Below are positions 24,171-62,274 of a stretch of DNA of 64,000 nucleotides, one piece after another. This DNA is from Siphonodentalium dalli (taxonomy: Eukaryota > Mollusca > Scaphopoda > Gadilida > Siphonodentaliidae). The notes beneath the pieces were generated by a model that saw only the letters and a program-made list of their open reading frames with translations, made no database searches and was not told the origin of the DNA. A program made the translations under genes and the position numbers. Where the stretch lies: NCBI GenBank assembly GCA_032622095.1, contig CP136069.1:3437566-3501565 (forward strand), given 5' to 3'. Each line of letters opens with the position of its first letter. Positions within the stretch are counted from its first letter, which is position 1.

Positions 24171-24369
24171 GATCGCAGTTCATCATTTGTTTAATAAATG
24201 TTTTTATATAGTTTAAATATAGTTACTAATAATGTAACGTTGGGAATCTCGATTATGCAATATGTCTTCAGCCAATTTGGGGATATAGAGAAACTAAACT
24301 AAAAATGAAATAGAATATATGTCAAGAAGTTCTTAATAAATTTGATAATAAAGAAACTTTTCAGAGAAG

Positions 24370-24430
24370 ATGAGGCCTAAGCAGAATGAGGTCCCTCAGA
24401 GGGTGAATTGGGCAATGCTAGCCCGCTAGG
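24370..24430. repeat. Family G palindrome fragment
   Basis: GAGGCCTAAGCAGAATGAGG followed by CCCTCAGAGGGTGAATTGGG and GCTAGCCCGCTAGG, half of the 93-bp palindrome seen complete at 37278 and 45129. Confidence 0.65.
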
Positions 24431-24471
24431 ATTCCAAAATAGCATATGACATGGTTAAACCTCACCTTATA

Positions 24472-24684
24472 CAGTAATGCCCTAAGTAATCGACCTCTTA
24501 ACCAAAGCAGAATTATAGGTAACTTTTCAGGACTTAGTTGGAAATATGGCTTGTTGCCATTCATTGGAAAGCTTTGGCCGAGAGCTTTCCGATGAATGGC
24601 AACAAGCCATATTTCCGACTAATTCCTGAAAAGTTACCCATAATTCTGCTTTGGTAAAGAGGTCGATTACTTTGAGCATTACTG
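24472..24684. mobile_element. Mariner-like hairpin MITE (family M), complete
   Basis: CAGTAATGCCCTAAGTAATC ... GAGCATTACTG flanked by TA. It is a full-length hairpin lying 42 bp downstream (intron side) of the donor of the exon at 24727-24927. Confidence 0.85.
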
Positions 24685-24726
24685 TATATATATATGACAT
24701 ACACAGTGACTATGGTTAAACCTCAC

Positions 24727-24927
24727 CTTTGTAAATGCAGGTGTTGCTAATATATTGAGTGACTTTGTAAAGTTGTCGAGTGATTTGTCCCGACTTTTAC
24801 TTCTCGAGTTCTGTTGCTCTTCGACTTTATTTTTACTCTTTTCTTGAATACTCTCTCCTGATCTTTCCCTGCTTTTAATCGCCTTTTTCTCTTTCTTGCG
24901 GCCTCTTGATTTGTCATCACAAATGGC
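24727..24927 (-). CDS. Exon of SYCP2-like gene: Lys/Arg/Ser-rich
   Basis: The acceptor is TTTTACCAG and the donor AAG|GTGAGG; 67 whole codons, phase 0 on both sides. The peptide has RGRKKEKKAIKSRERSGES and SRSKSRDKSLDNFTKSL, a basic RS/KS-rich linker, and ends ILATPAFTK. The composition suggests a disordered, possibly DNA- or chromatin-contacting linker. No domain is recognised in this exon alone; it is assigned by strand, phase and style. The large LINE-bearing intron follows. Confidence 0.7.
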
Positions 24928-24958
24928 CTGGTAAAAAAAGACGATTGGATTTAGTCTA

Positions 24959-25357
24959 TTAACCCTTTACCCAACAGAAGGGCCCTGTGCCAATGCATTC
25001 TCTTATATATGCGAGTCGACCATAGGTCGCCTCGAATATATAAGAGAATGCATTGGCTTAACACATTAAAAATTATAAAATTGTTAAAGAATGTAAGAAA
25101 AAATGGTAAAAAGTGTTAAAACAAGATTTTTTTAGGCCAATGCATTCTCTTATATATGCGAGGCGACCTATGGTCGACTCGCATATATAAGAGAATGCAT
25201 TGGCACAGGGCATAACTGTAACCATCACAATGTGGTCAATGAGCCGGTTCCAATGATATCCATATTTGTATGGTTCTATTGAGACAGACCGGAGATTTTT
25301 TAGGCTGTTGAAGCTTTATTTGGCCGGTTTTGGCCGGTTTGTTGGGTAAAGGGTTAA
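24959..25357 (+). mobile_element. piggyBac-type MITE, family P copy 2
   Basis: TTAACCCTTTACCCAACAGA ... GTTGGGTAAAGGGTTAA, 399 bp, two palindromes, opposite orientation to copy 1. Confidence 0.85.
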
Positions 25358-25488
25358 CTCGTTCTTTACTAAATACTCATTGACGGGTAAGTACATACAT
25401 CAGGAAATGTTTCACATAATAACTTCAACAAACAATCATTTGTTGAACTTATTATCTGAACATTTCCCACCAAAGAACATGACCAACA

Positions 25489-26028
25489 GCAGAATTATGG
25501 GTAACTTTTCAGGATTTAACCCTTTACCCAACAAACCGGCCAAATAAAGCTTCAACAGCCTGATATATCTTCGGTCTGTCTCAATAGAACCATACAAATA
25601 TGCATATCATTGGAACCGGCTCCTTGACCACATTGTGATAGTTACAGTTATGCCCTGTGCCAATGCATTCTCTTATATATGCGAGTCGACCATAGGTCGC
25701 CTCGCATATATAAGAGAATGCATTGGCCTAAAAAAAATCTTTTTTTAACACTTTTTACCATTTTTTCTTACATTCTTTAACAATTTTATAATTTTTAATG
25801 TGTTATATAAGCCTATGGTCGACTCGCATATATAAGAGAATGCATTGGCACATGGCCCTTCTGTTGGGTAAAGGGTTAAGTGGAATATGGCTTGTTGCCA
25901 TTCGTCTGAAAGTTCTCAGTGAGAGCTTTCCGATGAATGGCAACAAGTCATATTTCCGACTAAATCCTGAAAAGTTACCCATAATTCTCCTGTGGTTAAG
26001 GAGTCGATTATTTAGGGCATTACTGTCA
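25489..26028. mobile_element. Family M MITE split by a family P element
   Basis: The left arm AGCAGAATTATGGGTAACTT ends in AGGATT at 25515; the right part resumes after 25879 with GTGGAATATGGCTTGTTGCC and runs to GGGCATTACTG. The outer left end is missing. Confidence 0.75.
25516..25879 (-). mobile_element. piggyBac-type MITE, family P copy 3 (364 bp)
   Basis: TTAA-bounded copy with a shortened second palindrome, inserted in the arm of a family M MITE. It dates family P activity here as later than that M copy. Confidence 0.85.
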
Positions 26029-26261
26029 GGGTTCGCAAGTGAGTTTTTAATTAAGGGATGTGAACTAACTAGTGAAACACATTTTATCACATAATTTGGC
26101 CATAAAAGCAGTTTCATAATTATCGGTAATAGACACGTTTAATATCAGCGCGTGCGATGACGTCACAGCGTTCTTCAAATAACTTGCGATCGCTGTAGTT
26201 TATGATTGTTGTTTTCGATGAATATTTCGCGTTGCTTCGGGTTTATTTGATCATGTGATAA

Positions 26262-26405
26262 AAGGTATCACACACTCGTCCTATTTTATACGTAATTTAT
26301 CAACCTCGTCCTCTAAATTCTATTTGAGCCTCGGTAAACCTCGGCTCAAATCGAATTTAGTGAACTCGGTTGATAAATTCCGTATAAAATAGAAACTCAT
26401 GTGAG
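26262..26405. repeat. Imperfect 140-bp inverted repeat
   Basis: TATTTTATACGTAATTTATC, AACCTCG and AATTCTATTTGAGCC are mirrored by GGCTCAAATCGAATTTAG, ACTCGGTTGATAAATTCC and GTATAAAATA. A foldback sequence with no gene. Confidence 0.7.
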
Positions 26406-26780
26406 ATCCTCTATATCCAGCATGGGTTATTCGTTACGTGTGCCGAATTACAGACAATAATATGGGAAACCAAAACAAGAAATATATCAATTAATTTATA
26501 TGTAGCGCTAATCGAACGTGGTTAAAATGTGAGTCGGAAAAAAACTATGTTCTCATAGGTCGCCTCCAGACCTGTTAAGTTTTGAAAATGTCAATCCGGG
26601 GAAATTTTTGCAGGAGGTATGCCCAAATATGTTCATGTTCCAAAAATCATTTTATGATGAAGATTACATAGTTTTTATGAGTTTCTGTTTGTGTTTATTT
26701 TATAAATATATAGACCTAAATAAAATGGTAATGAATGTCCTGTTGGTAGTTCTAATAGAGCTCCTGTGAGTGGGAGATGC

Positions 26781-27512
26781 CACCATTTATTGAAGAGAAA
26801 GAAGCAGACACTTCATATAAACTAAGTGAAAATACTCAGAATTTCACCGGATACAGCTGGATATGCACGAAACCGAAAGTACAATGTATAAAATCGGAAT
26901 AAACCACAAAATGGACTTGTCTTACCGTTTAACTCCCAAAAGAAATGCACACATTCCACAATTTATTAACAAATTTTAAGAAGCAGAAACTTCATTTAAA
27001 TAAGTAAAAACGAACCCGAGTTACAAAGGTTACAACCGGGCATGAATGGGTGAAAACGAAAGTACAAAATGACCTGTCTTACAATTTTACCCGCAAATGA
27101 AATGTACTCGTTCCTTTCGCAATTTTCACTAATCCGTTTCTAAGACCTGTTCATCAATTATGGCTAATAATACAGCTGCATACTTGTGATTATAAGTATT
27201 GTATACTATAACAACACCCTGTATGTGTGTGGCTTCACCAGAGTGTGAAAATCAATTAATATCAATCAGAGCATCGAAAGTTAATGTTGATGAGTGGGTA
27301 TTTACGGTACCGGAAATAAGGAAACCACTGTCATTTGGGAAAACCCCGCAATTTCACGAATTCGAAAAATAAAAAAACATCGTTTTTTGGGGATTTGAAT
27401 GCGGGGTGTTGCTGAATCCGGGAGATATTGGGGGTTATCCGTATTTGCGGAATTGCTGTGGCAATTTTAATCCGGGAGTCTCACGGACAATCCGTGAAAC
27501 TTAACAGCTCTG
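26781..27512 (-). mobile_element. ORF-less copy of the repeat at 7845-9495
   Basis: Carries, in reverse, the same left end (CAGAGCTGTT, GAGACTCCCGGAT) and both ~155-bp 3' units with AATAAATGG. The reading frame is absent: the text runs straight across the CAATATGTATAA-type repeat that flanks the ORF segment in the other copy. Confidence 0.7.
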
Positions 27513-27662
27513 GTCGCCTCGCATATATCAGAGAATGCATCTGATGTTTCGTAAATTTTTCCCCAATTATACGTGCAATTAAATTTGGCAAATATTTTTT
27601 TAATTTGGCAAAAAATTTGGCAAGAGAAAATTCTCGTCCAGCGCCAACCCTGTTTACTGTAC

Positions 27663-27746
27663 CTTGTAGATTGGTGTCTGCACGACGTTTGGCTGAGACG
27701 AAACATCATTAAAGCTGAAATTGAAGTTAGCCAAATCATCTGTGTT
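27663..27746 (-). CDS. Exon of SYCP2-like gene (28 codons)
   Basis: The acceptor is ATCTTTCAG and the donor AAG|GTACAG; phase 0 on both sides. The peptide is TDDLANFNFSFNDVSSQ, then PNVVQTPIYK. The NFxF pattern resembles LNFNF in the exon at 30119, suggesting a repeated short motif. A second frame is also open, but only this one keeps phase with the exons on either side. Confidence 0.65.
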
Positions 27747-27912
27747 CTGAAAGATAAGAAAAATTTAATTACACACCCATAAGTTTACTTACTTGTATTA
27801 AAATTCATCAAACTATTTATTTTTATGCACCCATCAGTATTTAAAACTGAGCGAAAAATAGTATGGCTCAAAGAGTTTAGAAAACAAACAGAAAAAATAC
27901 AGGGGTTTTGTA

Positions 27913-28290
27913 TTAAAGGTACTCAATCTGATTAAGCACCCCTAAATTACAATTTCTTTGGCTTCGGGGATAAAAAATATTTGATTCGAGTCGAGAAACC
28001 CACCATTCAAAACTGTTTGAAAAAAAATTTGTTAATTTTTCAGATCTGGTCCACTTACACGTGCTCAAATGGACAAACTGCGGGTGTAAGATGGATAACT
28101 CTAAAATCAAGTGGTTATTATTGTTAGTAGTATCCACTTGATTTCTGAGTTAACCATCTTACACCCGCAGTTTGTCCGTAATTTGTCTGTTTGAGCACGT
28201 GTGGATTCCTCGACTCGAATCAAATATCTTTTACCCCGTAGCCAAAGAAATAGTAATTTATGGGTGCTCAATTGGATTGAGTACCTTTAA
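27913..28290. mobile_element. TTAA-flanked family E element (378 bp)
   Basis: TTAAAGGTACTCAATCTGAT ... TTGAGTACCTTTAA, with palindromic arms meeting near ATTGTTAGTAGTATCC. Confidence 0.8.
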
Positions 28291-28367
28291 AGGTGGATTA
28301 TCTATCTATGTTACATGTGTGTCTGTCTGTCTGTAACTCTGTCACTCTTTTGGCACGTTTAAAGGTA

Positions 28368-28581
28368 TAGTAATGCTCTAAGTAATCGACCCCTTAACCA
28401 CAGCAGAATTATGGGTAACTTTTCAGGATTTAGTCTGAAATATGGCTTGTTGTCATTCATAGGAAAGCTCTCCGACAGCTGCTTTCCGATGAATGGCAAC
28501 AAGCCATATTTCCGACTAAATCCTGAAAAGTTACCCATAATTCTGCTGTGGTTAAGGGGTCGATTACTTAGAGCATTACTG
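28368..28581. mobile_element. Mariner-like hairpin MITE (family M), complete
   Basis: TAGTAATGCTCTAAGTAATC ... GAGCATTACTG with TA on both sides; both arms are full and almost identical. Confidence 0.85.
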
Positions 28582-28589
28582 TATGTCAC

Positions 28590-29250
28590 CCTCATGTCCG
28601 ATTGGCCCAAATTTTAACGTCCTGCAGCGCATCTTAGAATACGACATGTAAATTTAAAGATAAATCAGATCAAGACACCCTGAGATATAACGTGTTTGCC
28701 AAAGGTAATTAAGGCGATAGCGGCATTATTATAATTAACACACCAAATTCAAATTCTGGACAAACTCCGTGCAGTTTGCCGACTTTCTTTATATTATTAT
28801 CAGCGTGATGATATTTTGCTGCAAGTAGTGTTTGTCACCCGTCATATTTGACAGGCAATTACTTAGATGCTTAAATCCTCCTCACGGACATCAACAGTTT
28901 AAGCGACGACACTATATAGCTACATATTCTGTATTTATATAGTTTCGTGGGTATATAATAATAAATATGAAATGAAGACCATTGTGTGGAAACAATTCTA
29001 TCGATTAATATTGATTTTATTTTGAATATTTTCTTATATAATGCGATGATCAAGTGAGTCATATATTTGTTACTATTTTTAAAACAGACAGTTGAGGCGA
29101 TATCACATAGTAATAGAGATTATAACACACATTGCTACAATACGAACATGAAATGTCCAAGATTGATTGTTTTTATTGTTTTATTCCATAGTTAAAAGCG
29201 ATAATGAGTCTAATTAACGTTTATGACAAAATTTACACAATAAAATTTCT
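28590..29250. other. Intron, no feature seen
   Basis: AT-rich intronic sequence without a supported exon or a repeat recognised elsewhere in the window. Confidence 0.4.
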
Positions 29251-29258
29251 GGTCTCTG

Positions 29259-29850
29259 TTAACAGTAACCACTATTGGTTGTTAGTGACCCGGGCAGATG
29301 TGTCACCTTGCCAGGCACCCAGATAAAATTCAAGGCCATTTTCAAGGCTGAAAAACTCTGCCGAGCATGTGGATCACCCCACCAACCATGAACACATTGT
29401 GAGTATTCTGGCCTGTTTAACCATTGATTGTTGAAAGTACATTTCCCCATTGTTGGAAAATAAAAAGAACTTGCAAAGCGAAAAATTATTTCTCAGAAAA
29501 GCTTGTGCTTTTACAAACAAAACAACATGCACACACATCACAAGTTCATGCGGTACCGGTTAGGTATAGTTGCGTACATCACTTTACGTGCTTTTAGCTC
29601 AACATAATGAAGTGAGGCATCAGTTCGCTGTACTTGTGTTCGATTTGCATTCCCCGATAGAAAGTCCGCAATCAAATGACACTGAATCGGTTGTTTCCCA
29701 CATCAAACTCCATGATGACTAGAATTCAAGTACTTTTCAAGCTAATAGCGTGAAATTCAAGTAATTTTCAAGGAATAAAATTCATTCAAGGATTTTCCAA
29801 TACAAGCGGAAAAATCAAGTACTTTTCAAGGCCTGTATGAGCCCTGAGAA
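29259..29850 (-). mobile_element. hAT-like transposon 5' fragment
   Basis: The outer end at about 29850 reads CAGGGCTCATACAGGCCTTG on the minus strand and is followed by repeated CTTGAAAAGTACTTGA and CTTGAAAATTACTTGAA words, a well-known style of hAT 5' ends. From 29450 a frame reads MGKCTFNNQWLNRPEYSQCV, like the opening of zinc-finger hAT proteins (KxxFxxxWL). It decays within 63 codons. Assignment is by recognition only. Confidence 0.5.
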
Positions 29851-30118
29851 TTGTTGAATATTACTAGTATAATAACTACATGTAGTTGTACTCAGTTCTT
29901 GAAAGTTTCATACAGCCACTGGCTTTTATTTGAATCGTCCAGATTTAATAGCCAAACACTGTGAAAATGACAACTTTGGATAAAATAACAGTACTGTTTC
30001 GTAAAAAACATCAGTTTGCTCTACCAACATCATAGGAATTCAGCAGGAACCACCAACATCATAGGAAATTAGCAGGAAAACTTTACCAAATGTGAATATT
30101 GTTACGGGTATATTATAC

Positions 30119-30184
30119 CTGAGGTTTTGGTGTCAAAATGCATCTGGACGTTCTGTTATCGAAGTTAAAGTTCAAATTCTCCAG
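30119..30184 (-). CDS. Exon of SYCP2-like gene (22 codons)
   Basis: The acceptor is TACTTTCAG and the donor CTCAG|GTATAA; phase 0 at both ends. The peptide is LENLNFNFDNRTSRCILTP then KPQ. Too short for a domain; its support comes from splice sites, phase and the LxNFxF similarity with the next exon at 27663. Confidence 0.6.
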
Positions 30185-30248
30185 CTGAAAGTATTCAAAC
30201 ACTTGGCTATCATGGCAGAATTAGAAAATTATATTGAAGTGCAAATTA

Positions 30249-30355
30249 CAGTAATGCCGTAAGTAATCGACCTCTTAACCAAAGCAGAATTATGGGTAAC
30301 TTTTCAGGATTTAGTCGGAAATATGGCTTGTTCCCATTCATCGGAAAGCTCTCCT
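30249..30355. mobile_element. Family M MITE, left half
   Basis: ACAGTAATGCCGTAAGTAAT through AAGCAGAATTATGGGTAACT to GGAAAGCTCTC, then joined to a family G palindrome. Confidence 0.7.
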
Positions 30356-30364
30356 TACAACTCA

Positions 30365-30462
30365 GCAGAATGAGGTTCCCAGAGGGTAAATTTGGTAATG
30401 CTAGCCTGCTATGCGAGGTAGCATCATTAAATTCACCCTCTGGGGACCTCATTCTGCAAATG
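30365..30462. repeat. Family G palindrome
   Basis: GCAGAATGAGGTTCCCAGAG with its inverse CTCTGGGGACCTCATTCTGC about 90 bp on; a foldback unit. Confidence 0.75.
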
Positions 30463-30957
30463 ACAGACGCGCTATTTCAAGGCTTGTTCTTGTCGCTTAT
30501 AGGGGTCTTTGCATTATTGTAAAGTCTATTGTGCACACATTAATATGGTTAGGTGATACAATTTAACAAAATCCATTGTTGATTACTTTTCATGAAATAA
30601 ATTATTTCAAATGGGAGGAATTGCGGCAATTAAATTACTTGCCCATCGAAAATTGCATTGCTCGACCAATCAAAAGCTTCCTGCAAAATCAATAATTAGT
30701 CACAATTTATCAATTATGAATACAAGCCCTGCCCATTATTTTTAATTGCTGCTAAAAATCTACAAAGCTTATTTAACCACAGAAAAGACGTTTTAGCATT
30801 TTCTGCCTGTTAATGAATTATGGCGATTGTTAACACATATGGGCATGTCACACGTCAATCAAACAGTAAACAGTGCCTTATATTCTGAATCATGAATAAT
30901 AATGAGCTGTCGCGAGCTGGGCATTACCTCTTCATCAAAAATTAAGTGGGCCTTTAA
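30463..30957. other. AT-rich intron ending in an AAGTGGGCCTTTAA terminus
   Basis: No exon was seen. The last bases match the right end of the element at 19735-20695, so a related TTAA element probably ends here; its left end was not located. Confidence 0.4.
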
Positions 30958-31115
30958 CCACCGCAGAATTATGGGTAATTTTTCAGGATTTAGTCGGAAA
31001 TATGGCTTGTCGCTATTCATCGGAAAGTTCTCACTCAGAGCTTTCTAATGAATGGCAACAAGCCATATTTCTGACTAAATCCTGAAAATTACCGATAATT
31101 CTGCTGTGGTTAGGA
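30958..31115. mobile_element. Family M MITE, ends missing
   Basis: CCGCAGAATTATGGGTAATT, the hairpin centre at GTTCTCACTCAGAGC, and the inverse arm to TAATTCTGCTGTGGTTAGGA. Confidence 0.7.
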
Positions 31116-31145
31116 GTCTTTTTAATCAGGGACATTTAATCTTAC

Positions 31146-31250
31146 CCTTTCTAAAGAGACAACCGGCGTAAATGAAACATTAGTGTGGAGATTGGAATGA
31201 TGAGTTCTTGTGTAAGACTTGTTCGGTTTCTTCTTTGATTTTCCATGGTT
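31146..31250 (-). CDS. Exon of SYCP2-like gene (35 codons)
   Basis: The acceptor is TTGGATACAG and the donor AAAGG|GTAAGA; 35 whole codons, phase 0 on both sides. The peptide is NHGKSKKKPNKSYTRTHHSN, then LHTNVSFTPVVSLER: basic, then a more hydrophobic TPVV segment resembling the TPAFTK and TPIYK ends of neighbouring exons. The exon before it (37021) ends with two spare bases, so an exon with phase 2-0 should lie in between but was not found. Confidence 0.6.
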
Positions 31251-31334
31251 CTGTATCCAACTAATTTCATTCCTGGAAGTAATTAATGCAAATTTATAGT
31301 ACATCATTACCCTTGCGCTGGTGCAACAATAAAG

Positions 31335-31640
31335 ACCCTGTGCCAATGCATTCTCTTATATATGTGAGTCGACCATAGGTCGCCTCGCATATATAAGAGA
31401 ATGCATTGGCCTAACAATTTTTTATCCTTTTTTATAAATTTTTCTTACATTCTTTAACAATTTTTATAATTTTTTCTTGCATTCTTTAACAATTTTTATT
31501 ATTTTTTATCATTATTTCTTACATTCTTTAACAATTATAAAAAATAATATAAAATTTTCTAGGCCAATGAATTCTCTTATATTTGCGAGGTGACCTATGG
31601 CCGACTCGCATATATAAGAGCATGCATTGGCACAGGGTTT
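31335..31640. mobile_element. Palindrome pair with AT-rich linker (P-related)
   Basis: Two 75-bp palindromes (31340-31412 and 31558-31637) in the ACCCTGTGCCAATGCATTCT context, separated by four TTCTTACATTCTTTAACAAT units. Confidence 0.7.
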
Positions 31641-31693
31641 TCACAAAATTTCAGAGTTAACTCTTTCATGACTGGAGTTTCCTGAAATTTTTC

Positions 31694-32060
31694 GTTAACC
31701 ACAGAATTATAGGTAATTTTTCAGGATTTAGTCGAAAATATGGCTTTTTGCCATTCATCGGAAAGCTCTCACTGAGAGCTCTCCAATGAATGGCAACAAG
31801 CCATATTTCCATCATTACCCTTTGATGATTAAATAGGACCCCCTCCCACAAATGACTGAATAGGAATCTGCAGGGACATTTTAATCTTACCCTTACACTA
31901 GTGCAACATTAAATACCCTGTGCCAATGCATTCTCTTATATATGCGATTCGACCATAGGTCGCCTCGCATATATAAGAGAATGCATTGGCCTAACAAGGG
32001 AAAAGTTACCCATAATTCTGCTGTGTTTAAGGAGTCGATTACTTAGGGCATTACTGTAGG
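31694..32060. mobile_element. Family M MITE broken by a palindrome element
   Basis: The M hairpin at 31694-31812, a P-type palindrome at 31918-31996 and an M tail at 32005-32060 ending GGGCATTACTGTAGG. Order and spacing indicate nested insertion plus loss. Confidence 0.6.
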
Positions 32061-32139
32061 ACCCCCTCCCACAAATGACTGAATAGGAATCCTATGTCTT
32101 CTACACAAGCCTGAGTTTAGTGTGCCTATCATTAGCAGA

Positions 32140-32530
32140 ATGAGGTCCACTGAGGGTGAGGCTATCCTGCATCGTGGGCTAACATAACTAAATCCCCCCT
32201 CTAGGGACCTCATCTGCTTAGGCCTCCTCTTCTCTGGAAAGTTAATATCAAATTTCTATAGAAACTTCTTCACAAAGATTCTATTTCTTTTTAGTTTAGT
32301 TTCCCTATATCCCCAAATTAGCAGACAACACATTGCATAATCGAGGTGTAAAACCAATAGGTGTAAATCACAATATTCACCATTTGGGAACTTCAAGTCT
32401 CCCATAGCAATTGAGGCCTTGCAGAATGAGGTCCCCAGAGGGTGAATTTGGTGATGCTAGCCCACTATTCGGGATAGCATCAATAAATTCACCCACTGGG
32501 GACATCAATCTTCAAATAACAGGCACACTA
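32140..32530. repeat. Family G palindromes with their flanks
   Basis: Decayed copy at 32145-32218 and better copy at 32423-32505 (GCAGAATGAGGTCCCCAGAG ... CACTGGGGACATCA). Between them CTATATCCCCAAATTAGCAG matches flanks seen at 37470 and 45030 in the opposite sense. Confidence 0.65.
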
Positions 32531-32910
32531 AACTCAGGCAACCTAGCACAGTAAGCGGTGATAATTATGTTCAAATTTATTATGTTGTACAGGAATGACC
32601 TAAATAATCAACTCCTTAACCACAGCAGAACTATGATAAACTCAGAGAAGACCCAAACAAAGTCACGAAGTCAAATCAGTTTCTAGTTTGAAATTTGAGA
32701 GCTTTCCGATGAATGGCAACAAGCCATATTTCCGACTAAATCCTGAAAAATTACGGAAAATGAAGGAATGCATGGAATTATAGTGGTTAGCAAGCCTGAG
32801 TTAAGTGTAAACTGTCTTTTGCAGAATGAGGTCTCCAGAGGGTGAATTTAGTGATAGTATAGTGGGCTAGCATCACCAAATTCACCATATTAAGTGATAA
32901 GACCGAGATA

Positions 32911-33096
32911 CAGTAAGGCCCTAAATAATTGACTCCTTAACCACAGCAGAATTATGGGTAATTTTTCAGGATTTGGTCGGAAATATGGCTTGCTGCCATT
33001 CATCGGAAAGCTCTCACTGAGAGCTTTCCGATGAATGGCAACAAGCCATATTTCCGACTAAATCCTGAAAAGTTACCCATAATTATGCTGTGGTTA
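32911..33096. mobile_element. Family M MITE lacking its right end
   Basis: CAGTAAGGCCCTAAATAATT to the inverse arm AATTATGCTGTGG, then replaced at 33096 by TTAACCCTTTCCCAACAGC, a family-P-like terminus. Confidence 0.75.
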
Positions 33097-33458
33097 ACCC
33101 TTTCCCAACAGCACCTGTAGTTACACCACGTCATATAGCCAACGTCACCAGGTATAAAGGTAATTACGTTAGCCAACAGGTATTTGATGTTATTGCACAC
33201 CCAATGGCTTATTTGTGCGAAATACAGCAAAATACAGAATAATTGAAACGTTCAATAAAAAAATGTGTATTGTTCTTGAACAATACAAACCTATTACGTC
33301 AACAACGACACTGGCGACGTCATCTTTAACAGAAAATGTCTTCGCTAAATTATGGGATATAGTCTACATTATGCACATGTTTGTTCAATTAAATACAACA
33401 ATATCGACCTAAATATTAGTATGTTACAAGCTGCAATCTTCAGAGTGTGCAATAAACA

Positions 33459-33606
33459 TAGAACAACACAGTTGTGTGAACATGTTAACGTTATTGCACT
33501 CGTTTGTCGTGCCGCGAGGTAAAACTCGAACCTCCGGTTCTCGTTTTACCATCGCGTCACAACAAACTCGTGCAATAATGTTAACCAGTTCACACACTTA
33601 TGTCGT
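33459..33606. repeat. 148-bp inverted repeat
   Basis: AGAACAACA, TGTGAAC, GTTAACGTTATTGCAC and CGTTTGT are mirrored by ACAAACTCGTGCAATAATGT, TAACCAGTTCACACA and GTCGTTCT. Centre near CCTCCGG. Confidence 0.7.
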
Positions 33607-33694
33607 TCTATCTATTTATAACATAATTGGGTATTTCCCCCCACACTGATCACAGCATGTATCATCAGATATACAACAACAAACATGCTCTCAT

Positions 33695-34095
33695 TTAACC
33701 CTTTACCCAACAGAAGGGCCCTGTGCCAATGCATTCTCTTATATATGCGAGTCGACCATAGGTCGCCTCGCATATATAAGAGAATGCATTGGCTTAACAC
33801 ATTAAAAATTATAAAATTGTTAAAGAATGTAAGAAAAAATGATAAAAAGTGCTAAAAAAAAGATTTTTTTTAGGCCAATGCATTCTCTTATATATGCGAG
33901 GCGACCTATGGTCGACTCGCATATATAAGAGAATGCATTGGCACAGGGCATAACTGTAACCATCACAATGTGGTCAATGAGCCGGTTCCAATGATATCCA
34001 TATTTGTATGGTTCTATTGAGACAGACCGAAGATATTTTAGGCTGTTGAAGCTTTATTTGGCCGTTTTTGGCCGGTTTGTTGGGTAAAGGGTTAA
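33695..34095 (+). mobile_element. piggyBac-type MITE, family P copy 4 (401 bp)
   Basis: TTAACCCTTTACCCAACAGA ... TGTTGGGTAAAGGGTTAA with both palindromes intact. Confidence 0.85.
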
Positions 34096-34099
34096 AGAA

Positions 34100-35010
34100 T
34101 AATGGAGACATAAATCAGTAGTCGAACTAAATATGTGCCAAAAACAACTGTTTATCTTCATTTTATCAGATATGTGAGAAAAAAATACTCAGTTTATGCC
34201 AATTTATGGTACCGGTAAGTCAATGTCCTTTTAAGTTTGTTTACCCACGTGCCGATACTCCTGTCGTGATTGAAAAAATAACTCATGATTTTTAAAACAA
34301 AAAGCATATTATAAATAAAATAATTCAACCAAAAGTCTTTTTATTAGATGTGAATGAACCATATAAACCAATAATTTACAAGAGTCGTAAAAATATTTTC
34401 GATAAAAGCGCAAAATATTAGCAATTACGTCACGTTGTTTGTCGATTTTCGTGCAAAAAAACACATGTCTCTTGTTGTCGATTTATTAAATGTCTTCATT
34501 GACAACCAATGAAATCAATTATTAGAACCATGCTATTGTGTGAACTGATTTCATTGGCTCAAGTTTAGGGGTGGAGTTTTCCATTGATGATAATTAGATC
34601 ACAGAAAACTAGCGCCTTCAAAACGGCAGTGGGCTAACTTAGCCGTTAGACGTCGGCTTTTTTGCTAGCAGGTGCCCTAAATACGCTGCTTGGAATATTG
34701 TTTTGTTGATATAAGTACCATGTTACTTTATACTCGGTAATTATATATGAATAAGCTTCCCAAGATGAATTTGAGATATTTGCATGTGAACTGTGAACGA
34801 GCCTTTAATTAGAAGCACTCACACTGGGCTGACTTGATGTCAAACTGGGAGATATTTACATTTTATATTGATTTCTATCGATCGATCAGTCGATGGTATT
34901 TTTGCGCGGCGTATTTGGAATCTTGAACAGATGGCTATATAAAATAATGCAAGATGTAAATAAGTGCCTCCATTGTCATTGTCATGAACTTTTGGTTGAT
35001 TAAAAAAATT
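34100..35010. other. Intron, no gene or recognised repeat
   Basis: No splice-bounded frame in phase was found on the minus strand, although an exon with phase 2-0 is expected somewhere between 37021 and 31250. Confidence 0.35.
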
Positions 35011-35013
35011 ATT

Positions 35014-36343
35014 ACCGTACTGACCCGCGTTTAGGCCCAGGGGGCCTTTGTTTTATTTGAGCTCAAAAATCCAAGTGGGCTTAAACTCGGATATGGCCCT
35101 TTGCAGACCAAAAATCCTAAGAAATCGGGACATTAAAACTTATGAAAACTGATCTAACGCCGATTATTTGGGAAATATACCCGGCTTCCAGATTAAGTCA
35201 AGGTAAGTATTTATAAGTTACTTTGAGAAAGTAATTTTTCAATTAAATGTGAATATTAAAATATTATAATAACACTTAGTCTTGTAGTTTTATTGCCCAA
35301 AATTCCCATGTTAAAATGACACTATTATGTAAGCGGCAGTGTGGGTTATGGGTAAATCCCTTATCTTATAGTCTATAAGACGTCTATAGTGTATATCAAT
35401 GTTCAGACTTAATCCGATTAGGAAAACAATAAACCCGGCGCTTTATTCGTGATCCATTGTCCACATAGAGGATGTTACAATAGCGACTAATTGCATGTTT
35501 AACAAAAGCCAGTGAGTGTAATTATTTAACAGTACTGACAAAAGGCTTGTATTTCTGCTAAAACGTATAAAAAAAAGCACCATTCTGAACTCCTCGACCT
35601 GTGACCTCTGGGTGTGACGGAATCTGACGAGGTTTGCCGAATGAAAAAAGCACGTTTGAATATTTATTGTTATTGCTCCTGAATTGTTTATACTGTAAAA
35701 CGTGAACAAAATGCAGTTTGATGTCGATAACCTTTATTTTGGTTTCGAGTGAATAACGTTTGGAATACATAATTTGTTGTTGAATGACAAGTTCCCCCTT
35801 CTGTTCCATTATTATACCCACTGTGTGTTTACATAACCAAGAAGCCAGTTCTTTGTGTTTGGTCACATGCAGGAACATACCTACGGTACGTTGTCACTGA
35901 ACACGAAAAATATGTTTTTACAGTACTGTATTTGAACAGGTGCGATTTGATTAAAGTATTGCACGCGCATAGCCGCACATGGTTTTTAAAGCTTGTTTGT
36001 TTGTTAACCTTTGGTTTCCCCCGGGAAGTATAATTGAATAAACAAATGAGAATTTAAGATTCACTTTATTTTATTTCATTTAATATTATCACTTACCTAC
36101 GAAGTATAACTTTCCATTTTTCGTGGCATTCTCGCCGTCACCGATCGTTTGGGAATATACTTCCCGTTATATTGGAATTATTTATTTGGGAAGTATCATT
36201 AGCAAATACTTACTTACCACTGCTGAAATTGACCAAAATTTGGGGTGGGCTTAAACACGAATATACCCCTGTGCATGGAATTTGGCCAAAAGATATGGGT
36301 GGGCTTAAACACGGGCAAGGGCTTTGAACCGGGTCAGTACGGT
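35014..36343. mobile_element. DNA element with ACCGTACTGACCCG inverted ends (1330 bp)
   Basis: The left end ACCGTACTGACCCGCGTTTA and right end CGGGTCAGTACGGT are inverted; subterminal GTGGGCTTAAAC words occur near both ends. Overlapping minus-strand frames near 35443-35878 look weakly protein-like but match nothing I know. Target duplication is unclear (TTA/TA). Superfamily not assigned. Confidence 0.65.
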
Positions 36344-36872
36344 ATAAACTTATTTGTTCACGACTGAAGTGACAATCATAATGGAACTCGAAAGGAAAAA
36401 CATCCCAGCGGCCAGTTCGGTAACCGTTACGATGAGATTTTGCTGCGCTGTGGCTGTTTTAACTATGACTGGGAAAACAAGTTTATATTACACTATTTGA
36501 AAATATAAACTCACAACCTAAGAAATAATACATAATCCAATATAAATATCAATTTCAAGTTAACATTGTGTGACATAGATTACCCTCGCGGTCACGCATC
36601 ACGCAATCAACAAGGAAGCGTCTCTGACAACAAATTCAGTCTTCATCGCGACCACGTGTTTCTATTTCGTTTGTTTACATTTTGTTGGCAAAAACAGCAT
36701 TCTAAGTCAACATTTTGCAAATCCACAGTAAACAATGGAAAAAAATGTTTAATATGAGGCCTTAATGATCTTAAACATCAACAGAACAAACACAATCAAT
36801 GTAAATCGTCAGTATTCCTCTTTATTCGCGTCTCAAATTCGTGTGTTGAAAATGCAAATATTAAAGCCGTCA

Positions 36873-36945
36873 AAAGACGATACGGACGCTACAACAAAAG
36901 ACATCAAAAGACGATACGGACGCTACAACAAAAGACGTCAAAAGC
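36873..36945. repeat. 34-bp tandem repeat (two copies)
   Basis: Two head-to-tail copies of a unit with AGACGATACGGACGCTACAA followed by CAAAAGAC. It is followed by GGTTAAGGGGTCGATTATTT, the tail of a family M MITE (36964-36993). Confidence 0.85.
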
Positions 36946-37020
36946 CGTTACGTTGGAATAAGGGTTAAGGGGTCGATTATTTAGGGCATTACTCTATGTT
37001 ATCACATTAAGTTTACTTAC

Positions 37021-37067
37021 ATTGATTTCACGAGTGTCAAATTAAAGCTGTCTTCATTCTCCTTGTT
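37021..37067 (-). CDS. Exon of SYCP2-like gene (short)
   Basis: The acceptor is TTTGTATTCAG and the donor CAAT|GTAAGT. It starts on a full codon, matching the end of the exon at 48948, and holds 15 codons plus two bases. The peptide is NKENEDSFNLTLVKS. The other two frames contain stops. Strong splice sites support it, but the phase-2 end does not meet the phase-0 exon at 31250. Confidence 0.55.
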
Positions 37068-37239
37068 CTGAATACAAAAATTTAAATGGAATGTTATTCT
37101 GTTCATGAAATCATGTAAATGGAATCTGTTATTCATTGAGCATAAAATCATGAAGACAACAATTTGTATTAATCTTCCTGATCGAGGGTACCACACGAGT
37201 TCCACAACACATGCCTAGAGTTTCCCCGATGTACTATTT

Positions 37240-37690
37240 TTATCACTCCCAAGCCTGCAAATAGTGTGTGTCATTTGCAGAATGAGGTCCCCAAAGGGTG
37301 AATTTAGTGACGCTATCCCACATAGCGGGCTAGCATCACTAAATTCACCCTCTGGGGACCTCATTCTGCTAAGACCCTCAACTGCTATGGCAGACCTAGG
37401 ATCAGATTGAAGTTCCCCAGTTGAAGTTGATGATGTTCACCCATTGGACACCTCAATTATGAATGTTATCTGCTGCAAATTAGGGGATATAGAAACTTCC
37501 CAGAAGGGATAACTAAAAACAATGTTAATTTGATACTGTAGATACTTCCCAGAAGATTAGGCCTAAGCAGAAAGAGGTCTCCAGAGGGTGAATTTGGTGA
37601 TGCTAGCCCACTATGCGGGATAGCGTCACTAAATTCACCCTCTGGGGACCTCATTCTGCAAATGACACACGCTAAACTCAGGCAATTTCC
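37240..37690. repeat. 450-bp unit with two family G palindromes
   Basis: Contains GCAGAATGAGGTCCCCAAAG at 37278 and a second palindrome at 37568, joined by TATGGCAGACCTAGGATCAG and TAGGGGATATAGAAACTTCC. The same unit, in the same order, is at 44820-45235. Confidence 0.8.
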
Positions 37691-37911
37691 CCATATATCA
37701 GGGATTCCATGGAGCAGCACAAATTTCCCATCATCCAAATTTCGCCTCCAACATATTCCCCTACGCGATCCACAGATCCTATACCCATGTGTCTAGCTGC
37801 CACTAATAAAAACCAACACGGGGTTATAAACAAAGATAATTTTATTTGCCCGCTAATGCTGATCACTAGTGAACCATTTTGCGGGAAAAGAATGCTTTTC
37901 AGTTAAACATA

Positions 37912-38130
37912 CAGTAATGCCCTAAATAATCAACTCCTTAACCACAGCAGAATTATGGGTAACTTTTCAGGATTTAGTCGGAAATATGGCTTGTTGCCAT
38001 TCATTGGAAAGCTCTCACTGAGCTCACAAGAGCTATGTTGATAATGAGATAATGAGTCACCATTATCAGCAAACTGAGAGCTTTCCGATGAATAGCAACA
38101 AGCCATATTTCCGACTTAATCCTGAAAAAT
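37912..38130. mobile_element. Family M MITE, left part (split by a 6.2-kb insertion)
   Basis: CAGTAATGCCCTAAATAATC after TA, both arms partly present with a ~60-bp insert at the hairpin tip (38015-38075), ending CCTGAAAAAT at 38130. The matching remainder is at 44352-44406. Confidence 0.85.
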
Positions 38131-38475
38131 GAAAATTTGATTATCAAATTGTAGTTTTATGAGTAACAAAGACTTATTCAAACCAGATACCATTAGGATT
38201 CCAATCCAGCGTGTCCCTTTAATCGCAATATATATATATTGAAGCATTTTTCGTTATGCGCATGCGCAACGAAACTTCTAGATTCTAACTCTCGTGAGAT
38301 TCCACGAGACATACCATCTTCAATTGGCGTCAAAACGTCAAATGATGGTGAAAACACAGAGTTATATTAAGTTCATAACAAAGTATAACAATCGGCGGGG
38401 AGGAAGGGTGGGCTGGTATCTGGTTTGAATAAGTCTTTGTTACTCATAAAACTACAATTTGATAATCAAATTTTC
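38131..38475. mobile_element. 345-bp element with 61-bp perfect inverted ends
   Basis: The left end GAAAATTTGATTATCAAATT and right end AATTTGATAATCAAATTTTC are inverted and perfect for about 61 bp, up to AAACCAGATACC. Bases 38171-38335 also match, inverted, the right end of the large element (44180-44342), so both belong to one family. Confidence 0.8.
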
Positions 38476-41400
38476 ATTTTTATTTCGTAACGACTTATTC
38501 AAACCAGATACCATTAGGATTCTACCAGATTTCGTAGCAATAAACACTCTACTTATCTGGAGGTGGGCTTAATCAAACATGCATCAAATACACTCACTAT
38601 TAGTGATTTTTCCCACTAATAGCACCAGTGACTACCACTGATTCTTGATGTATGTTCACTATAATTCCCATAGAGACCCTTACGTATGTATAATATGAAG
38701 AACGCATCTACAATATCTCTTAGGATAACCATTTGTGTTAACCCGCCGAAAGAGAGTACATGATGTATTAAACGTTAATATTGGTTAGGAGACAAAACAC
38801 CAAACGTCTCCTAACAATGCAAGGTACATATATCAGAATGATACCTTACATAAGAATATATAAACCGATAGACTAGACATGGATTAGACATGTACCGGTA
38901 GGTGTACACAGTCTACATGTATATAACTATACGCAAGATATAAACAGGTACCGGTATATGATCAGCTGTAACATTGCGCAGTCAACATGCAGATGAATGT
39001 GACCAGAATAATCAAATAAAATCATCCGAAAGCAGGCCTCAGCCTAGGGGTCCAGAACAGGGAGACTTGAAGTCTCCCTCCAGGAAATTTAGGGAGACTT
39101 CAGGAAATTTAGGGAGACTTCATGGAGACGTGGGGAGACTACCAAAAATTGACAATTTTCAAATATCGCTTTAATTTATAACATCTGACAATAAAATTTT
39201 TAAAAAGATAAAATAAGAAATAAAACTAAAAAAATTTGACTTTATCTGAAATTAGCTTAATTGTTATTATACATTTAAAATTTTTGGAAATGTTTTGTGT
39301 AGCTATCATTTAAGCAAGACAATTATCAAATTACAGTAGAGTTAATTTTTTAACTAAATGAAAGTAGTATTATTTCCTGGACTGCAGCTTGGAAGATACG
39401 TTTGTACAGTCTGAATCATGATGCATGTAACTTTGTAAGTTTAATTTGGTCACGGCTGTAATGTGGGTGTCCGCTAAAATAAACAATAAGGACTAGCTAA
39501 CAAAGGAGTTGCAAAAGCTTTTATTAATTAATGGCCTCCCTTAATTAATGCCAACATCACTGGTATAATCCGATTAAAGCAATAAACTTGACATTATTTT
39601 ATTTACGGAAGCGTGTATCTTCAAAAAGTCTGACGCGGTCTCTTCAAAAAGTCCGACGCGTTACCGAAACGAACTTCCGAAGCGCCTGTACATACTCTGA
39701 TATTAAATGTCGTAATTGTTTTATATCTGAAAAGCGGGACGGCGGTCTATTAAGTTAATTAAAACATTTATTTGTGACACTCACGATGGTCAGTAACAAC
39801 ACAGATGCGAACATCTCATCGTGTTTTCAGCGTGTCAAAACATTCGTGATTAACATTCATTACCGCAAAGGGATCGAACAAAGGCGACTGAATAACAACA
39901 CAAAACAATAGGTCATATTTTATTTTTTATTTTAAGCAGTTGGGTCTTTGTCTCTGCATCGTCTGTTTCTTTTTGGGATGGCCGGCACAATTCATCTATA
40001 TACGGACCTGTCCGGAAAAAAAACTAGAAACAAAATTAAGAAACAAAAAAAATAAAAATCCCCCAAAAATTGAAGGCGACTTCGATTTCGCCTTAGAGCG
40101 ATGACACGGCGAAGTCAGCAACAGTAAGGTGACAATCTCGCCCGAGTCGCCTTGTGAGCTGAGGCCTGTCCGAAAGTCAATACTGGTAAGCCTGGAAGGA
40201 CCCAGTGAATTTCGTGTGGCTATAATTAAACTGGACAAGTAGAATCACTTGACAAGCATCGAGAACCTGTTGAAGAGTATGACCTAAATAAGGTACACTA
40301 GATGGAGAATATCATTTTATCACAGATACCGGATGGCGTGGTTAGTCTCTTCAAAATAGAGCTGGAGACAGACAACAAACCATATGTGAAAGGCTGGACT
40401 AGGGACAGCCCTGAAAAGTTGTAACTGCATGAACATGATTAAAAACTGATGCCAACTTAGCGTGATCGAGACAAATGACACTTAGTTGTCTCCCGACAAG
40501 AACGAACAGGTCGACGTTGAGCAAGATGTGTTCAGAATATAGACTTCGGAATAAAGAACGCTTCAGTTCAGAGAAATTATGTTGATGAAGTTGATACCTC
40601 GATTCAGGATTGCCCTGAAGTTTGCCTGTAAATCACGGTAGCGGCGAAACGAGGCGATGACTATGAAGCCACAAGTTTTCTATGGCAATAAGGTCAATGA
40701 TGCAGCCCCCAACGGCACAACTGACGTTGATATGGGTAATTGAATTTTCGTAAACGATAAATAACAGCTATGCTGGTAACAATGATTGTAGGAGGACGCC
40801 TACGGAAACCCCATTTTAACAAGTGGATTAAGACTGTGTGTACCGGGAGACCTAAGGTATATGTTACATGTATGTCACTCAAATTAAGGCAAAACTCGAT
40901 GACGTCATGAACCAAGAACTCACAAATGTGAGTATTTCAAACCTGCCAAAATTGAAATGAGGTAGGGAATCAGAACAGCCTACCCACGACGCTCCAAAGT
41001 TAAGTCCTGAATCAATATGTTGATAAATACACCAACGATTGAATTGTGTAGATTAAGTTGTAATTTCTGTGAGAGCCATGTTACCATGATCAGGTTGTGA
41101 TATGCATTTGAAAGAATTTATTTGAAAGTTGTTGGCTGAGATGGTCGCAACACCCAGTTCTGATTCTGAGATAAGAGACCTGGTAAAATTCAGTACTGAG
41201 ATGATAGGTCGGTGTAATCATAAGTTGAAAAAGTTGGGTATGTCAATACTGACGATGTCAACTGGAGCAAGCACTATTATTGTGCAATTTTTTTATGGAA
41301 TATAAGTGAGGACCTGTGGTCTCAACTGTATTGGTGAATATGCATATGTCATCAGATTGTCCTATCGATAGATTGACGATAACAACCACTCAAGTTTGAG

Positions 41401-44351
41401 GTTGTGATTTCCACGAACAATTATGTGCTCATTTCTCGTTCATCAATGATAGGCAGAACGATCCCGGGAATCTTTCAAATTTGAAAGATCGCCGAGACTA
41501 CCTGATCGAATTCCCATCAGTGGGACGATATTAAATGATATCAGATGAGTAAAGTAATCTTCTACCTGGTATATAGTGAAGACGTTCCCTGCTACATGAG
41601 CTGATGTTAGAAGACAGTTGTGTCTTAATTTCAGATCCTAAAGTTGTACGGTATAGGCAGACGACACAACCATACACATTATGTCCCACCCGGCTGGTGG
41701 ATATTCTGGGTGACTGATGGGCTGCTAGGTGTCTAGTGAAGTAGACAAATAAAACGTTGAGATAATAAAAGCAGGAACCTGCAGTCATTTCTAGACAGTG
41801 ATATGTTGACATTTCTCCACTGGTCACCAGTGGTTTTGACTAATTTGTTGACCCATATAACAACCCCATCGCCAAGTCCGAGATGGAGCGGTTAGTGATA
41901 AGATTCTTGTTACCTGGACCAAAAGAGCGGTACCCGATAAATGTTAAAATTGTTAAATATAAAGTCGGAGAGAGGCCTGGACAAAAATTGTGACATGCAG
42001 GCCATAAAACCCAGAAGGTTTATGCAAATCAAATATACTTCAGAAAGTGAAACAATTGCTTTCACGAAAATCAAACTAAGATTCAAGATTCTGGTTCTCA
42101 CCATAATTCGAGCCCCGATCTGATACAGAGGGATGCTTGTGGTAAGGAGATAATATAGGAGAAGATGTAACTGAATCGGTCGCATTCGGAAACATAATTG
42201 TGGTACAACATCAGTGTCAAGAGATAACCCCGAGAAAACGAATGTATTCCCGGATTGTAACCCTCCGTTGAGACATTCAGTGTGTTCGTTCTTTCCCGGA
42301 ACCAATAGATATAAGCTACAGGTATGGTTGTTCCGGGTTATTATGGTATCGGAAGAATCAGGTCATCCGTAGTCGGAAATTATTTCCCAATAGGTACACA
42401 TGAACAAGTAACTTATCGGAAAGATGATACTGACGCGTTCGAGTAATTAGTGAATGATAAATTTAGGCAGATCCAATCTTCCAGAAAGGCTACCAGGCTG
42501 ATACCGAGAGATCGAAAGAGTTAATGCGACCGAGACTATGTGGCAAATACTCAGGAACTCGGGTCTACCCCAAAATAACGTACTAGAAATTGCCACGAAC
42601 AGGTTCGAAATCGGAAACTGATATACCGGTACATGGACAGGTATGGACGGTGTGTTTTGAACATACCGGTACGTGAAAAAAAAAAAGGTAACACTGTAAT
42701 TAAAGTGTTAGGACAAGTAAAGCAAATTATCGATACCGGATCATTGCAGCACCTCTGATCAGGTGTCCAGTTCGAAATGGTGAATAGTGAACTATATATT
42801 TATGGTTCATTACACTAGACGTACAACGTATTTGTCCAGTTTGTTTGACTGAGAACCGTGGACGGTAAAACCCAGTTGAGAGAGACGTAACTGGTTCTAT
42901 TTGAATTTTCCATGCCATCAATTGTCGATGTTCATTTCGAGTTGGTCGGGTTCAAGAAATCGAGGAAGTCCAATCAGTAACCCCAGGTCAGAGTGTTCAG
43001 TACCTTGAGTTAACCTTTTCCTATCCGCGTGTTGATAAGAAATGAATCAAGACGTGTATTGAAATATTACTGGTGCCTAGAATACGATTATGATGTTACA
43101 AAGTACGGTAACCTTCATAAAAATACTCCCAGATATTGGAAAGTTAGAAGCATTGATGTTTAACGACGTCATCAAGTTCAGTGTCTGATAGAGCTCGGCA
43201 TATTGACACACCTTGTGTCAGAGAGGCCCAGCCTTATTTGACATATAAATGACCTTGACCTGATGACCACAGTCATCCTCTGGTGATCTCGAGAAGTCAT
43301 ACATTCCAAAAGTTAACTACGTACCTGTTGGTGGTAGAAGTGATCAGTATCTCTTCATGTGGGTTCTGTTGGATGTCGAAAGTCATCGGCTCAACCGAAC
43401 AATATCTATAAAGTGATAGAAGTACCCCATTCTCTTCAAACGATTGAGAGTAGGCACTGTCCGAAATTCTTCTGTGTCATGACCCATGCGCGGGAAATTA
43501 AATGCAACAGAATTGTCATTGTACAAAGGCACAGAAATAGTAGTTTTGTCAGGTCTACATGAATGCCTCAAATCTTTGTATGCACGTAAAGATTGGAAAT
43601 AAGTTCGTGCTGTCCTGTATCATGACAGATTGGTACATCTGGACAATATGTCAGTGTCTGCATTATCCTCCGACAGTTGCACCATACAACTAGCAAATCA
43701 TCTGTCGATAAATATGGTGATGATTTATACACTGGGACTTGCAAAAATGCAAAGGACATTGTATTAGAGTCAGAAATTACAGAATCGTCATTTCATCAGA
43801 CATCATTCTGCTTAGAGTCGTACTCATATACCGGGTCTTCCCCGATTGAGTCAGGACTCGTGTTCATTTCATCTCCAAGGTGAGATTTCATGTTTCAATC
43901 GGAAGATTGCTGTGACAATTAACTGTTGTGAAACGGTCGTTAAATCTTTTAAAAACACGTTTCAACTTCAAGTTTCATCTCTGATTTTGAAGCCGGAAGT
44001 GAAGGGAGAATTTCATCGGTCAAATCTGAAGTTTGCTGTGATGACGAACTGTCGCGAACGTTTGTTTATTATTGTCACGTTTCAAGCAGTTCGGATTAGG
44101 TCCATTCCTTAAAAGTGTGTTAAAAATACTAATTCCGTTTCAAAATAACGGAGCAAGTCAAATTGCGATGTTTAATGGCGGACGCCGAAATTGAAGATGG
44201 TATGTCTTGTGGAATCTCACGAGAGTTAGAATCTAGAAGTTTCGTTGCGCATAACGAAAAATGCTTCTATATATATATATATATTGCGATTAAAGGGACA
44301 CGCTGGATTGGAATCCTAATGGTATCTGGTTTGAATAAGTCGTTACGAAAT
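38476..44351. mobile_element. Large (~5.9 kb) element with ~45-bp inverted ends, no recognisable gene
   Basis: The left end ATTTCGTAACGACTTATTCA (after ATTTTT) returns inverted as TGAATAAGTCGTTACGAAAT at the right, extending inward through AACCAGATACCATTAGGATT. The interior has only short frames, the longest 131 codons at 41910-42305, none resembling a transposase or other known family. A short repeat GGAAATTTAGGGAGACTTCA is at 39086-39120. AAAAT at 38126-38130 and 44352-44356 may be the target duplication of the whole 38131-44351 block. Confidence 0.65.
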
Positions 44352-44406
44352 AAAATTACCCATAATTCTGCTGTTGTTAAGGAGTCGATTATTTAGGGCA
44401 TTACTG
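44352..44406. mobile_element. Family M MITE, right part
   Basis: AAAATTACCCATAATTCTGC to GGGCATTACTG with TA at 44407. It completes the MITE that breaks off at 38130. Confidence 0.85.
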
Positions 44407-44689
44407 TACATCGACACTTATTGCCTTATTCTGAAAGAAACTGAAACAGACATCGCTAAATGCCAAGTGGTTGCAATGTTACGTCGTGATTTACGTTCTC
44501 AAATACCACAATGTTCTCATTTATGATTATATAGACTAGGTCCAGATATTAACTACTGAAGGATGATCAGAATTATTTCATGGAATTGGCAATGGTGGTA
44601 ATGTTGTCATGAAAAGTAAAGTCGAACATAGCAATAAATTGTGAACTTTAACAATTTCCTCTGCTGTTGTTGCTGATGTGGTCATTTGC

Positions 44690-52215: not shown

Positions 52216-53950
52216 AAATTAAAGAAATATTATGTACTTATTAAAGATATATTATGTACTTATTAAAGATATATTATGTACTTATTAAAGATATATTATG
52301 TACTTATTAAAGATATATTATGTACTTATTAAAGATATATTATGTACTTATTAAAGATATATTATGTACTTATTACAGATATATTATGTACTTATTAAAG
52401 ATATATTATGTACTTATTAAAGATATATTATGTACTTATTAAAGATATATTATGTACTTATTAAAGATATATTATGTATTCAGGTGTAAGTTAGTATTCA
52501 CTCTAAAGATATATTATGTACTTATTAAAGATATATTATGTACTTATTAAAGATATACTATGTACTTATTAAAGATATATTATGTATTCAGGTGTAAGTT
52601 AGTATACACTCTAAAGATATATTATGTACTTATTAAAGATATATTATGTATTCAGGTGTAAGTTAGTATACACTCTAAAGATATATTATGTACTTATTAA
52701 AGATATATTATGTATTCAGGTGTAAGTTAGTATTCACTCTAAAGATATATTATGTACTTATTAAAGATATATTATGTACTTATTAAAGATATATTATGTG
52801 CTTATTAAAGATATATCATGTACTTATTAAAGATATATTATGTACTTATTCAAGATATATTATGTACTTATTAAAGATATATTATGTACTTATTCAAGAT
52901 ATATTATGTATTCAGGTGTAAGTTAGTATACACTCTAAAGATATATTATGTACTTATTAAAGATATATTATGTACTTATTAAAGATATATTATGTACTTA
53001 TTAAAGATATATTATGTACTTATTAAAGATATATTATGTACTTATTAAAGATATATTATGTACTTATTAAAGATATATTATGTACTTATTCAAGATATAT
53101 TATGTACTTATTAAAGATATATTATGTACTTATTCAAGATATATTATGTATTCAGGTGTAAGTTAGTATACACTCTAAAGATATATTATGTACTTATTAA
53201 AGATATATTATGTACTTATTAAAGATATATTATGTATTCAGGTGTAAGTTAGTATTCACTCAAAAGATATATTATGTACTTATTAAAGATATATTATGTA
53301 CTTATTATAGATATATTATGTACTTATTAAAGATATATTATGTACTTATTAAAGATATATTATGTACTTATTAAAGATATATTATGTGCTTATTAAAGAT
53401 ATATTATGTACTTATTAAAGATATATTATGTACTTATTAAAGATATATTATGTACTTATTAAAGATATATTATGTACTTATTAAAGATATATTATGTACT
53501 TATTAAAGATATATTATGTATTCAGGTGTAAGTTAGTATTCACTCTAAAGATATATTATGTACTTATTAAAGATATATTATGTACTTATTAAAGATATAT
53601 TATGTACTTATTACAGATATATTATGTACTTATTAAAGATATATTATGTACTTATTAAAGATATATTATGTACTTATTAAAGATATATTATGTACTTATT
53701 ACAGATATATTATGTACTTATTAAAGATATATTATGTACTTATTAAAGATATATTATGTACTTATTAAAGATATATTATGTACTTATTACAGATATATTA
53801 TGTACTTATTAAAGATATATTATGTACTTATTAAAGATATATTATGTACTTATTAAAGATATATTATGTACTTATTAAAGATATATTATGTACTTATTAA
53901 AGATATATTATGTACTTATTAAAGATATATTATGTGCTTATTCAGGTGCA
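52216..53950. repeat. 22-bp minisatellite array (~1.7 kb)
   Basis: Dozens of AAAGATATATTATGTACTTA(TT) units of 22 bp, interrupted eight or so times by a longer variant containing TTCAGGTGTAAGTTAGTATT. Both unit types match the left end of dispersed repeat R, whose body starts at the array's right edge. Confidence 0.95.
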
Positions 53951-59267: not shown

Positions 59268-59275
59268 TGCCTTAC

Positions 59276-61329: not shown

Positions 61330-61459
61330 CTGAAACAGTTAAGAAATGAAGGTATTAAAAAGAAGTATTTGGTTTCCAAGACTGAAATATATTTCTAAGT
61401 GAAAATTGATCAATTTCATATTTCAGGGCTTTAAATTCCGCCAAATACAAGCCAAAATA

Positions 61460-62225: not shown

Positions 62226-62274
62226 GAAAGGAGAGTAACTCTGTGAAAAACGATTTTTTTCTGTCATCCATATA

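Follow-up and report, generated by a model that had tools for sequence, protein, structure and literature searches.

How did 6.2 kb of DNA that holds no recognisable gene come to lie inside a hairpin MITE? We addressed this question in a 64,000-nucleotide stretch of DNA (hereafter the window), in which a copy of a repeated MITE, here called M, is interrupted in its 3′ arm. The best explanation, which we regard as probable, is that four cut-and-paste DNA transposons lie in three nested levels at this site, none of them with a recognisable transposase, and that the large one was moved by a transposase from outside. Both MITEs and nested, non-autonomous TIR elements are standard kinds of repeat, and layered parasitic DNA is ordinary. 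We classify the locus as a commonplace nest of non-autonomous DNA transposons of unclassified family. Beyond being a clear example of three-level nesting by four DNA transposons at a single site, it is ordinary repeat biology. In a study on bivalve genomes, MITEs are described as filling a considerable part of these genomes, and TcMariner and hAT as being among the richest superfamilies (PMC10294476).

The interrupted MITE and its unoccupied site

M is a palindromic hairpin MITE flanked by TA. The copy studied here spans 37912-44406 together with its insert and is bordered by TA target duplications at 37910-37911 and 44407-44408. A search that tolerated 4 mismatches per 20 bases recovered 22 M ends in the window, and 20 of them have TA beside them, the exceptions being those at 10914 and 26025. 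Insertion at TA is the rule for MITE families of the Tc1/mariner type, and M resembles them in this preference, in its palindromic hairpin of about 200 bp and in its many copies in the window.

BLASTN against the window placed the last base of M before the insert at 38130, its resumption by 44352-44357 and its end at 44406. Matches to many other M copies reach 38130 on the left and restart at 44352 on the right, in agreement with the break and the resumption given in a preliminary description of this DNA. Both remaining parts of M, recognised by their matches to other copies, lie on the plus strand: a left part of 219 bp (37912-38130) and a right part of 50 bp (44357-44406). The preliminary description spoke of a 200-bp MITE split by 6.2 kb. 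The split by about 6.2 kb stands, but this copy measures 269 bp without its insert, its hairpin loop exceeding that of other copies by about 50 bp. Four complete copies span 195-214 bp, and the ends of a fifth pair are separated by 133 bp. The additional sequence occupies approximately 38023-38072, since most matches to other copies end no later than 38022 and begin again no earlier than 38073.

The site of insertion was found unoccupied elsewhere in the window. With the flanks of the insert joined once, 23 alignments to M arms (E up to 1e-6) spanned the junction; alignments that did not span it were dropped by the filter of the script, one of the 23 is the 5′ arm of this same M copy, and a palindromic copy can count twice. 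The junction sequence is exactly CCTGAAAAATTACCC in 5 of these alignments. AAAAG takes the place of AAAAA in 14 others, a G replacing the last A of the A-run, some of them with further differences, and the remaining 4 carry other changes or small deletions.

Elements within the insert

The left part of the insert is a MITE-like element of 345 bp (38131-38475, plus strand). Its perfect 61-bp inverted ends (38131-38191 and 38415-38475) had already been described, and inclusion of adjacent bases extends the perfect inverted repeat to 68 bp (38125-38192 and 38414-38481). To its right lies a large element of 5876 bp (38479-44354, plus strand), delimited by its inverted repeat and by enumeration of boundaries. 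It carries perfect 44-bp TIRs at 38479-38522 (plus strand) and 44311-44354 (minus strand). With one flanking base included, 38478-38522 matches 44355-44311 at 100%, a perfect inverted repeat of 45 bp such as TIR (class II) DNA transposons have. Its length is about 4.7 kb (approximately 4732 bp) without a nested insertion, described below, and one copy of the duplication of that insertion. The TIR sequence could be used as a probe for the mobilising transposase in the host genome (TTTATTTCGTAACGACTTATTCAAACCAGATACC) and as a query for intact relatives of the element (TTTATTTCGTAACGACTTATTC).

The two elements are related at one end. Positions 38168-38331 of the 345-bp element, read on the minus strand, match the right end of the large element (44344-44181) at 91.2% over 170 columns; at the other end, only the 22-bp TIR core GACTTATTCAAACCAGATACCA is in common with the left end of the large element. 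Measured from the ends, this core starts at a distance of 13 bp in the large element and of 40 bp in the 345-bp element, and the bases outside it differ. Within three mismatches, the 22-base TIR pattern occurs four times, always at these two elements, compared with a mean of 0.00 in 100 shuffles. The earlier statement that the two elements have related ends thus applies to the TIR core and to one end of about 165 bp (91%), but not to the other end or to the outermost bases. A simple deletion derivative of the large element was considered for the 345-bp element and rejected: since its other end has only the core in common and its outer bases differ, it is a relative rather than a product of simple internal deletion. 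The core and the common end suggest that both elements may use the same transposase.

BLASTN of the 64-kb window revealed the large element only once, so the case for its mobility comes from its ends and its split target. Its sole partner in the window is the 345-bp element, with one end and the TIR core in common, not both ends. MITEs and larger non-autonomous class II transposons are similar to this pair in having perfect TIRs, no recognisable coding capacity, short target duplications (putative in the pair) and a small and a large element with end sequence in common; the pair differs in that no autonomous partner accompanies it in the window.

Target duplications were assessed by enumerating symmetric boundaries with a 12-bp exact TIR; the large element has 18 of these and the 345-bp element has 16. 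Among the 18, no duplication other than ATT exceeds 2 bp (38476-38478 on the left, and 44355-44357 on the right, where its last base is also the first of the M remainder); matches of 2 bp (TA, AT and CG) lie further inside. For the large element, ATT is the best-fitting candidate for a target duplication, of 3 bp, but the AT-rich site also permits 2-bp readings or a composite AAAAT. The outer ends of the 345-bp element are flanked by AT (38129-38130 and 38476-38477), a possible 2-bp target duplication. AT, AATT and AAATTT (38137-38139) also match further inside, but these do not settle the ends of the element, because self-complementary words in a perfect inverted repeat produce them. Best-fitting duplications of 2 and 3 bp, respectively, are odd for two elements of one family.

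The large element itself contains an element of 1136 bp (39033-40168, plus strand), which was absent from the preliminary description. It has 11-bp inverted ends, CAGGCCTCAGC, and is flanked by an 8-bp target duplication, TCCGAAAG, at 39025-39032 and 40169-40176, as detected in a scan for duplications accompanied by TIRs. An 8-bp duplication together with an exact 11-bp TIR was seen in none of 300 dinucleotide shuffles, and together with an exact 7-bp TIR in 10 of 300. Looser criteria (an 8-bp duplication and 8 of 14 TIR bases) yielded candidates in 3 of 5 shuffled controls too, and it is therefore the exact 11-bp TIR on which the assignment depends. A target duplication of 8 bases and a short TIR starting with CAG are the rule in the hAT superfamily. 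The nested element agrees with this superfamily in both features and differs from it in that no transposase was found and only one copy is present within the window. Because six-frame translation of 39033-40168 gave no Pfam match, to a hAT transposase or otherwise, we call the element hAT-like only.

The same scan, run with 5 pair-shuffled controls, exceeded these controls in three other duplication classes: 6 bp (6 candidates; controls, 1-4), 3 bp (4; controls, 0-2) and 2 bp (11; controls, 0-1). The TIR of the large element accounts for 7 of the 11 candidates in the 2-bp class, and one candidate in the 6-bp class corresponds to the hAT-like element with a one-base offset. In addition, a 20-bp tandem repeat at 39081-39140 adjoins one 6-bp candidate and supplies one of the 2-bp candidates. 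Several of the remaining candidates are A-rich, and the hAT-like element was the only candidate accepted. Further small nested insertions may be present in the large element.

Coding capacity, insertion order and alternative explanations

The interior of the large element was searched for protein-coding sequence. With stops read as X, no Pfam family was detected in any of the six frames of 38523-44180 at E values up to 1. The same procedure, applied as a positive control to a broken reverse-transcriptase region (21501-24500), recovered RVT_1 in two of six frames; a third frame had a single match below threshold, to SCA7 (E = 0.85). Within what Pfam can recognise, the large element contains no transposase gene. 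In the interior to the right of the nested element (40177-44180, plus strand), the longest open stretch is 150 codons, a length reached by 16 of 200 shuffles (mean, 116; sd, 24), and the open frames are not clearly longer than expected by chance. The earlier description of a large interior with no recognisable gene was borne out by both results.

Several weaker signals were also present. Base composition predicts a stop density of 0.069 in the plus frames, where 0.060, 0.060 and 0.069 were observed, and of 0.059 in the minus frames, where 0.052, 0.056 and 0.050 were observed; five of the six values lie slightly below expectation. Three-base periodicity reached 2.8 at 40201-40800 and 2.9 at 43651-44250, which is weak compared with values of up to 14 in a coding-like region at 59-63 kb, the median of the window being 1.0. 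In the first 3 kb the plus strand has an excess of purines, and GC content is 40%, versus 36% in 18000-37900. Given the purine bias, the weak periodicity and the slightly low stop densities, there is a small chance that the interior includes a highly divergent gene. Comparison of 38523-44180 with itself (E up to 0.01) revealed only a short imperfect palindrome at 41462-41497.

Nesting provides a partial time order: M came first, the two related elements next, and the hAT-like element after the large one. In the history that we favour, M would have inserted at a TA. The 345-bp element and the large element, then about 4.7 kb long, would have inserted side by side, in either order, at one AT-rich point in its 3′ arm, and the 1.1-kb hAT-like element would later have entered the large element with an 8-bp duplication. 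Movement of the large element itself would have depended on recognition of its ends by a transposase encoded at another site, and its interior would be non-coding filler. A two-step history for the pair, in which M read ...GAAAAATTACCC... and received the 345-bp element at AT and the large element at ATT, in this or the reverse order, accounts for every base. It is unlikely that the whole 6.2 kb, comprising the 345-bp and the large element, was inserted once as a composite with a 5-bp target duplication. AAAAT does occur on both sides, at 38126-38130 and 44352-44356, adjoining M sequence in each case, as noted in the preliminary description. This word need not be one 5-bp duplication, since two insertions with AT and ATT would yield the right AAAAT as AT preceded by the AAA of the large element's own TIR, CGAAATAAA. 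Moreover, the outer ends of such a composite, GAAAATTTGATT and ATTTCGTAACGA, are not inverted repeats, in contrast to the perfectly inverted ends of either inner element.

With separate insertions preferred, the origin of the large element remains to be considered. Its perfect TIRs, clean empty site and lack of recognisable coding sequence support a non-autonomous DNA transposon, one of two possibilities raised in the preliminary description. The other was a very decayed autonomous transposon. A size of several kb falls in the range of autonomous elements, and the weak periodicity of parts of the interior and its slightly low stop density would be in keeping with a former gene, but the absence of a Pfam domain in all six frames and the ease with which shuffles reach the longest open stretch argue against one. 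We calculated that 0 differences in 45 bp of TIR set a 95% upper bound of approximately 6-7% on divergence between the ends. Erasure of a gene in place is therefore very unlikely, and the large element, its TIRs still identical, was probably non-autonomous on arrival; decay of an autonomous element after insertion at this site is the least probable of the readings considered. We also give little weight to a captured host or foreign segment, or to a transposase too divergent for Pfam, although the higher GC content and the purine excess on one strand point in this direction. Both values fall within the range of other 1-kb windows, no Pfam domain was detected, and the interior has no translated match to the rest of the window and only one weak DNA match, of 49 bp in a poly-A stretch. 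It is similarly doubtful that the large element founds an undescribed family of multi-kb non-coding TIR transposons with an ATT-type 3-bp duplication and the inner 22 bp of the TIR as a conserved transposase site.

Searches and other repeats in the window

Exact-match scans of viral contigs gave 0 matches for each of three queries, namely the TIR core, the M end and a piece from just inside the termini of the large element, as did a scan of bacterial and archaeal genome contigs with the TIR core. These results are expected because the window looks like eukaryotic DNA, and they are uninformative on copy number in the host. When sequence strings were sought in the full text of papers, only caggcctcagctc matched, in two papers that, judged by their titles and the openings of their abstracts, deal with unrelated subjects; a literature search for related elements had a plant CACTA family among the matches listed. 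Searches of the window with Rfam at gathering thresholds and with ARAGORN at bacterial settings each gave 0 results.

Other parts of the window also contain repeats and coding-like sequence. Two RVT_1 reverse transcriptase fragments lie adjacent and in opposite orientation at 22629-23932 and are probably two LINE remnants. On the minus strand of 59264-63333, open frames of 677 and 265 aa are coding-like, with strong 3-base periodicity, and hold minisatellites with units of 60 and 78 bp (multiples of three); no Pfam family scored above its cut-off in these frames. A palindrome, AATGCATT, occurs many times at 3980-62072 (e.g., at 16058, 16206, 16541, 24992, 25139, 51815 and 58901), often as two copies 55 bp from each other and adjoined by CTCTTATAT or GGCACAGGG, which suggests another abundant hairpin MITE family. 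Tandem arrays with units of 79, 164 and 161 bp are located at 4163-5442, 969-2011 and 18618-19151, respectively. In addition, an AT-rich satellite with a 22-bp unit (consensus ATTAAAGATATATTATGTACTT) occupies 52218-53942 in about 79 copies, with a GC content of approximately 17-22% and a marked skew of G over C.
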